NCBI GenBank assembly: GCA_009380025.1
Contig: WHSP01000015.1
Location: 10,016 to 52,146 of the forward strand
From: Gemmatimonas sp.
GTDB taxonomy: Bacteria; Gemmatimonadota; Gemmatimonadetes; Longimicrobiales; Longimicrobiaceae
Length of the DNA: 42,131 nt
Direction of reading: 5' to 3'
A program made the translations under genes and the position numbers. The notes beneath the pieces were generated by a model. That model worked only from the letters and a program-made list of their open reading frames with translations, did no database searches and had not been told where the DNA came from. Every line of letters begins with the position of its first letter. Position 1 is the first letter of the stretch. Below, in pieces: positions 39,977-42,131 of the stretch.

Positions 39977-40050
39977 GGCCTCGTAGCTCATCAGGATAGA
40001 GCGCATGATTCCTAATCATGAGGTAGAAGGTTCGAGTCCTTCCGGGGCCA
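39977..40050 (+). tRNA. tRNA-Arg (anticodon CCT)
   Basis: A complete 74-nt cloverleaf. Acceptor GGCCTCG pairs with CGGGGCC (one T-G); D stem GCTC/GAGC; anticodon stem CATGA/TCATG with loop TTCCTAA giving anticodon CCT (reads AGG); T stem GAAGG/CCTTC with loop TTCGAGT. The discriminator is A; the following CC of the 3' end is not encoded. tRNA 3' ends are frequent integration sites, and the stretch after this one looks accessory, but I see no attachment-site duplicate in the window. Confidence 0.96.
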
Positions 40051-40088
40051 TTCCGTAAGTCTTTACAAAACCACCACTTATCGCCGGA

Positions 40089-40121
40089 GTCGTCATCCCC
40101 CGCTTTCGCGGGGATGACGAC
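40089..40121. repeat. Dispersed palindromic repeat, single-arm copy
   Basis: GTCGTCATCCCC (40089-40100) and GGGGATGACGAC (40110-40121), a perfect 12-bp stem with a 9-nt loop. It matches one arm of the family at 2599, 10455 and 41428. The bases just before it, TTATCGCCGGAGTCGTCAT (40078-40096), recur at 41414-41432. It may also end the tRNA transcript. Confidence 0.8.
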
Positions 40122-40133
40122 ACTGTGCCACTT

Positions 40134-40229
40134 CCGAAATCTCAACAGACTGCCATGCACGACGAAACCAGGAGACGACCGATAGCCAACGCATTACGGT
40201 GGAGAATCCGACCGCCAGCCGGATCGATG
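40134..40229 (+). repeat. Direct repeat, copy 1 (start of sugar dehydrogenase gene)
   Basis: About 96 bp running from CCGAAATCT through the ATG and first about 25 codons of the dehydrogenase gene. It recurs with scattered differences at 42002-42131. The match spans both non-coding and coding bases, so the DNA itself was duplicated. Confidence 0.9.
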
Positions 40230-41378
40230 CTGAGACACCACCCAGCACGAATCGCGGCTCTGGCGGCGATCGTGGCCACAGGCTGCGATGGCGCGGGCGT
40301 CACGGGGCCGCCGCCCGTCGAGTTGCAAGCCATCGAGATTGCGGGTGGGCTGACGCAGCCAGTGCATCTGACGGCGGCGCCGAACGATGATCGGCTGTTC
40401 GTCGCTGAGCGGACCGGCCGCATTCGCGTCATCGAGGACGGCGTGCTTCTCGAGACATCGTTCCTCGACCTCTCGGCGGACGTAGAATGGGGCGTCAACG
40501 AACAAGGTCTACTCAGCGTCGCGTTCCATCCCGACTACGAGAGCAACGGCCAATTCTACGTGAATTACACGGGCGAGGGCGGCGCGACGCGGGTCGAACG
40601 CTACAACGTCTCCGCCGATCCCAACGTCGCCGATCCGGCCTCGGCTCAGCTCGTTCTGACTGAGCCGCAGCCGGGGCCCAAACACAACAGCGGCCTGCTC
40701 ACATTCGGGCCGGACGGCATGCTCTACATCGGCATGGGCGATGGCGACAGTGCTGGCGATCCGTTCGACAACGGACAGGATCCCGGCACACTGCATGGCA
40801 CACTGCTTCGGATCGACGTTGACGGCGGCGAGCCGTACGCCGTCCCGCCGGACAATCCCTATGTCGACGAGCCTGACTGGCGACCGGAGATCTGGGCGAT
40901 CGGGCTGCGCAACCCGTGGCGATTTTCGTTCGATCCCGAGAGCAAAATGCTCTTTGTCGCCGATGTGGGCCAGAACGACATCGAGGAGATCAACGCACAA
41001 CCAGCGTCAGAGCCCGGCCTGAACTACGGCTGGAACATCATGGAAGGCTCGGACTGCTATAGGTCCTCCGACTGCGATACGACCGACTTAGTGCTCCCCG
41101 TGTTGGAATTCGACCATGACGCGGGCTGCTCAGCAGTCATCGGCGGCTTCGTCTACCGCGGCGAGGCGCTGCGCGAGCTACGGGGCCATTACTTCTATGG
41201 CAACTATTGCAGCGGCGCGGTGCACACCTTTCGTCTGACCGACGACGGCGAAGTGACCGACGAGCGTGAGTGGCCGCTCGATCCGCTCGGCAGCACTACG
41301 TCGATCGGTCAGGACGCCGCGGGCGAGGTATACGTCGTTGTGCAAGAGGGCATCGTCTACCGCCTGGCGCCCTCCTAA
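40155..41378 (+). CDS. PQQ-type sugar dehydrogenase lipoprotein (GSDH family)
   Basis: A 407-residue secreted protein with the six-bladed beta-propeller pattern of soluble glucose/sorbosone dehydrogenases, which oxidise sugars with pyrroloquinoline quinone. Motifs: GLTQPVHLTAAPNDDRLFVAER, EQGLLSVAFHPDY, KHNSGLLTFGPDGMLYIGMGDG, EIWAIGLRNPWRFSFD, VADVGQNDIEEIN and GLNYGWNIMEGSDCY. A hydrophobic segment ends in VATGC with C44, a likely lipidation site. Starting at the ATG at 40227 would place this Cys at residue 20, a better signal peptide, so the start is open. No pqq synthesis genes are near, and many family members have unproven substrates. The 5' end is repeated at the window end. Confidence 0.88.
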   Translation: MHDETRRRPIANALRWRIRPPAGSMLRHHPARIAALAAIVATGCDGAGVTGPPPVELQAIEIAGGLTQPVHLTAAPNDDRLFVAERTGRIRVIEDGVLLETSFLDLSADVEWGVNEQGLLSVAFHPDYESNGQFYVNYTGEGGATRVERYNVSADPNVADPASAQLVLTEPQPGPKHNSGLLTFGPDGMLYIGMGDGDSAGDPFDNGQDPGTLHGTLLRIDVDGGEPYAVPPDNPYVDEPDWRPEIWAIGLRNPWRFSFDPESKMLFVADVGQNDIEEINAQPASEPGLNYGWNIMEGSDCYRSSDCDTTDLVLPVLEFDHDAGCSAVIGGFVYRGEALRELRGHYFYGNYCSGAVHTFRLTDDGEVTDEREWPLDPLGSTTSIGQDAAGEVYVVVQEGIVYRLAPS

Positions 41379-41427
41379 GTACTCCACGGCAAAAGTATGG
41401 CTACGTATCCTTTTTATCGCCGGAGTC

Positions 41428-41514
41428 GTCATTCCCGCGAAGGCGTCGCGAAGGCGGGAATCCAGAGCACCGCAACCGACTGAGCCACTGGATCCCCGCC
41501 TTCGCGGGGATGAC
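41428..41514. repeat. Dispersed palindromic repeat, two-armed copy
   Basis: Left arm GTCATTCCCGCG...GCGGGAATCCAG, right arm CTGGATCCCCGCC...GCGGGGATGAC, 87 bp. The left arm holds a small internal duplication of CGCGAAGGCG. It starts 49 bp after the dehydrogenase stop and is the closest copy to the family consensus in this window. Confidence 0.87.
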
Positions 41515-42001
41515 CACTCTTGGGCTCTCGGAATACGTCGCCGTAACTGTGACCAGAGGTACGCCGGCGGCCCCGTAGAACATCATGCCCCCTTCGGTTT
41601 GCGCTCTGTGCCCCCTTCCGGCGGTATGGTGGAAGCCCATCATGGGGTGATGCCTCGCTGGTGAAGTAGCGCTTCCGTTGGTTCGCCACGCCGCGCGTGT
41701 CGATCTCCTTCCCCCACCGTACGCACCTCCCGCGGTTCCCTTCACTCAGCCGTTGCCGGTACCCAGGTACTGGGCCCCCGCTTGTGGAGCTCTTGCGCGT
41801 AGTCCTTTAGTCCACGGCTTCGATTCGCTCCGCGGGGAGGGGAAGAGGAGCGCGGCCGAACAGGAACAGACAAAAGCGCAGGATCGGCTGTCGTCGGGAA
41901 AGCACGAGCCCTCGTTAGGCATCGCATGTGCTAACCACCCCACCCGATCGGACGGGTGCCCCCGGTCGCATGACCATAAGGCTGCCGCCAATTTGAGCCT
42001 C
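41515..42001. other. About 490 bp without a supported gene
   Basis: No frame on either strand has recognisable protein content; several short overlapping frames exist but none has a start, ribosome site and family motif together. Base runs such as GGGGAGGGGAAGAGG and several hairpins are present. It separates the complete dehydrogenase gene from its partial copy and may be decayed mobile or duplicated DNA. Confidence 0.5.
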
Positions 42002-42131
42002 CCGAAATCTCGACAGAAGTACCATGCACGACGAAACCAGGGGACGACCGATGGCCGACGCATCACGGTCGAGAATCCGACCGGCGGCCAACGCATCACG
42101 GTCGAGAATCCGACCGCCAGCCGGATCGATG
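42002..42131 (+). repeat. Direct repeat, copy 2, with internal 33-bp tandem repeat
   Basis: It repeats 40134-40229 up to the window edge. Inside, a 33-bp unit occurs twice in tandem (42054-42086 and 42087-42119), each with ACGCATCACGGTCGAGAATC; copy 1 has one unit. Because 33 is divisible by three, the reading frame is kept. Confidence 0.9.
42024..42131 (+). CDS. Start of a probable second sugar dehydrogenase gene (partial)
   Basis: 36 codons open to the window end: MHDETRGRPMADASRSRI, then a repeated 11-residue unit (ANASRSRIRPP like the one before it) and PAGSM. The sequence matches the start of the gene at 40155 (MHDETRRRPIANALRWRI...PPAGSM), apart from the extra repeat unit. It probably begins a tandem paralogue, but only the leader region is visible, so a truncated 5' duplicate is equally possible. 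Confidence 0.55.
   Translation, partial: MHDETRGRPMADASRSRIRPAANASRSRIRPPAGSM

Follow-up and report, generated by a model that had tools for sequence, protein, structure and literature searches.

A duplicated 5ʹ flank of a GSDH-family dehydrogenase gene at the end of a Gemmatimonas sp. contig

The GSDH-family gene and its known relatives

The structural similarity between the glucose/sorbosone dehydrogenase (GSDH) fold family and hedgehog-interacting protein (HHIP) is already known (PMC4133262). Described prokaryotic relatives with sequence matches to the protein studied here include the PF07995 PQQ aldose sugar dehydrogenases of E. coli (2g8s) and P. aerophilum (3a9g), as well as T. thermophilus 2ism. 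Our protein differs from these in being a predicted lipoprotein, and in its matches to solved structures the prokaryotic aldose dehydrogenases rank well below hedgehog-interacting protein 2wfx, the top hit (E = 2.3e-33). Tandem GSDH pairs were also observed in two related genomes. In G002:C74, from the same family, the two products share 68% aa identity and the reading frames are directly adjacent; in G058:C3, from the same order, the identity is 77% and an upstream stretch is duplicated too, at 74%.

The DNA analyzed here, hereafter the window, is a stretch of 42,131 nucleotides (C66:10016-52146) from a Gemmatimonas sp. draft genome of 5.0 Mb in 478 contigs with a completeness of 97%. On its forward strand, positions 40227-41378 carry a GSDH-family (PF07995) gene for a putative PQQ-dependent sugar dehydrogenase of 383 aa, a predicted lipoprotein, as judged by profile and structure-sequence matches, with the start placed according to the signal peptides of homologues. 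Residues 42-374 matched PF07995 with an E value of 1.7e-49 and 169.3 bits, compared to a gathering score of 25, which puts the protein in the GSDH family, while the 66.1 bits obtained with NCBIfam TIGR03606 (non_repeat_PQQ) lay below the cut-off of 434.55. Among named assemblies, the protein had its closest relatives in Gemmatimonadota. Its KHNSG and GLRNPWR segments are a likeness to the PQQ aldose dehydrogenase family, and they resemble the catalytic His and the Arg-Asn of six-bladed quinoproteins. In the same genome, pqqE and pqqC adjoin each other and both score over the cut-off (C462:10142-12153), suggesting that the organism probably makes PQQ and making a PQQ enzyme plausible for this gene. 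The gene product would be exported and lipid-anchored and would act as a PQQ-dependent aldose dehydrogenase. The original prediction of a sugar dehydrogenase gene with a duplicated 5ʹ region was borne out by the PF07995 match together with the repeat described below.

A direct repeat that runs into the contig end

Positions 40134-40220 are repeated at 42002-42089 with about 87-90% identity (E = 4.7e-24), and an ungapped comparison of 40153-40220 with 42022-42089 gave 90% identity. When 40112-40220 was locally aligned with 41980-42089, the score was 67, compared to a best score of 15 among 200 shuffles, so the recurrence of the 5ʹ region of the gene at the window edge holds. The first approximately 20 bases of this alignment were weak, and convincing homology begins at about 40131. 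From the repeat search and the alignment, copy 1 was thus assigned to 40131-40229 on the forward strand, and from the repeat and tandem searches, copy 2 was assigned to 41999-42131 on the same strand. The repeated stretch of about 95 bases lies directly before the GSDH gene, and copy 2 lies approximately 1.87-1.9 kb downstream of copy 1. A search of the whole 5.0-Mb assembly recovered copy 2 as the other match (87%, E = 4.7e-24) and no third site. The repeat had been expected to span upstream and coding bases. The upstream part stands, but the visible homology reaches only to the ATG at 40227-40229, indicating that the 5ʹ flank of the gene is repeated, with no demonstrable coding sequence in it. 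No Rfam match was found within the repeat, and its folding was no better than that of shuffled sequences. When copy 2 was sought in 60 relatives, there was no convincing match (a single match of 26 bases, E = 9e-4), and in the other genomes of the same family the matches to the query were confined to its tRNA part.

Copy 2 contains an additional 33-bp unit, and the predicted occurrence of this unit twice in tandem was confirmed: a tandem-repeat search found 2.2 units at 42045-42116 on the forward strand with a 92% match, the top-scoring tandem array in the window. After the 33-bp units, copy 2 continues with the CCAGCCGGATCGATG found in front of the gene at copy 1. The final 27 bases of the window are an exact copy of 40203-40229, and this 27-mer had no other site in the genome, even with up to three mismatches allowed. 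The 33-bp unit was not found in viral contigs.

Base 42131 is the final base of contig C66 (52146 of 52146), hence the sequence beyond it is unreadable; copy 2 is truncated by the contig end and sits where the contig is least reliable. This position in a draft genome of many contigs, and the exact equality of the final 27 bases with copy 1, would fit an artefact of the assembly edge or of a strain mixture, including the doubling of the 33-bp unit. However, unit 2 does not simply revert to the copy 1 sequence: like unit 1, it has TCA and TCG at sites that read TTA and TGG in copy 1, and these two unit 1-specific bases weaken the artefact reading. In addition, the many differences between the two copies show that copy 2 is not a collapsed duplicate of copy 1, and the final 27-mer is absent from every other contig. 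We therefore regard an artefact as unlikely. The doubling is more likely ordinary slippage or unequal exchange within a probably non-coding flank.

Start codon and reading frames across the repeat

The ATG at 40227 is the likely start of the gene, as it gives a lipoprotein-type signal, MLRHHPARIAALAAIVATGC, in which the putative lipobox Cys was read by eye; similar signals ending in Cys are present in most homologues. Most readable homologues begin with a short stretch of Met and hydrophobic residues up to the Cys, without a leader like MHDETRRR, and the paralogue on contig C73 of the same genome begins with MKQGWKWLAAPAAVLVASC, again as read by eye. Alternatively, the repeated bases might be translated into a variable leader at the N terminus of secreted dehydrogenases from a recently amplified family; 11 additional leader residues had been proposed for the second copy. 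In favor of this reading, an open frame of 36 codons starts at the ATG at 42024 and is preserved by the 33-bp unit. However, copy 2 is also open throughout in a second forward frame and in a reverse frame, and a 33-bp insert keeps the frame one time in three by chance, so the open frame is no evidence for coding. A Shine-Dalgarno-like motif was not seen by eye directly before the ATG at 40155 or at 42024.

Upon comparing the two copies in the MHDETRRR frame, we found seven base differences in six codons, none of them synonymous. About one-quarter of random changes in this frame would be synonymous, and zero of seven would arise by chance with a probability of about 0.13. The count is compatible with an absence of selection and does not point to a conserved peptide, although so small a number could also come from a translated leader under neutral drift. 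The GC contents at the three codon positions were 0.54, 0.67, and 0.58 in the supposed leader, compared to 0.68, 0.45, and 0.78 in the gene body, and were thus not coding-like. Based on the start at ATG 40227, the all-nonsynonymous differences, and the codon-position GC, the repeat probably remains untranslated instead of encoding a variable protein leader. A translated leader on an amplified family seems very unlikely to us, and we give even less weight to its fullest form, in which 11-residue units would vary between tandem dehydrogenase paralogues and alter export or anchoring. The proposed leader with its 11 additional residues was thus not supported, and the case shows how a contig edge and an over-long reading frame can mimic a variable protein leader.

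What may lie beyond the contig end

We propose that the repeat represents the promoter or untranslated region on the 5ʹ side of the putative GSDH lipoprotein gene, that this flank was copied in tandem 1.87 kb downstream, and that copy 2 would head a second GSDH gene, diverged from the first, with its body past the contig end. We put the probability of this reading, a duplicated non-coding 5ʹ flank heading a second GSDH gene beyond the edge, at roughly 0.55. We favor it on account of the tandem GSDH pairs in the two related genomes. Both pairs are same-strand adjacent paralogues, and that of G058 shares a duplicated upstream stretch with the present locus; in both the second gene is visible, whereas the window contains just the flank of the presumed one.

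As only this flank is seen, any gene, or none, could follow. The upstream regulatory segment might have been duplicated alone, with copy 2 preceding an unrelated gene or none, and this would agree with the absence of a second close GSDH gene from the 97%-complete assembly (the nearest paralogue, on C73, has 57% identity and an unrelated upstream region) and with a homology that fades upstream at about 40131 and cannot be traced downstream. Against this, the homology extends up to the copy 1 ATG and meets the contig edge without fading, and relatives carry tandem GSDH pairs; we consider a duplication of the flank alone improbable. For its part, the tandem-gene reading requires that a contig is missing or unbinned. 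The possibility that C66 continues into C73 was rejected, since 435 bp of unrelated sequence precede the C73 gene and the repeat match is absent there.

A recent amplification of the family was not shown: there is no close second gene in the assembly, and the flanks have already diverged by more than 10%, which suggests that the duplication is not very recent, unless copy 2 came from another strain. The duplicated 5ʹ flank at the contig end is real but ordinary; the locus probably joins the tandem GSDH pairs of related genomes as a further case and otherwise has mainly annotation value.

Outside the repeat, a tRNA-Arg gene (anticodon CCT) is located at 39977-40050 on the forward strand (ARAGORN; Rfam RF00005, 66.3 bits). 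The dehydrogenase gene does lie next to a tRNA gene, as originally noted, but this tRNA is just a neighbor: the tRNA-Arg(CCT) loci recovered from relatives have no GSDH gene within about 1.5 kb; a tRNA-linked island was rejected on the same grounds.

Two palindromic elements bracket the GSDH gene. A short REP-like inverted repeat, GTCGTCATCCCCCGCTTTCGCGGGGATGACGAC, lies at 40078-40121 just upstream of copy 1 and has matches in other contigs. The other, a dispersed MITE/REP-like element at 41379-41565, starts right after the GSDH stop codon, has many copies in the genome, and folds with a z score of -5.2. It shares a strong hairpin and dozens of genome matches with REP/MITE-type elements; in contrast to such systems, a Y1/RAYT transposase (PF01797) was not found in the assembly. 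These dispersed palindromes may have helped the rearrangement. The MITE/REP-like element measures about 120-185 bp, and its ends resemble inverted AGTACTCC / GAGGTACT, with the matches spread across contigs.
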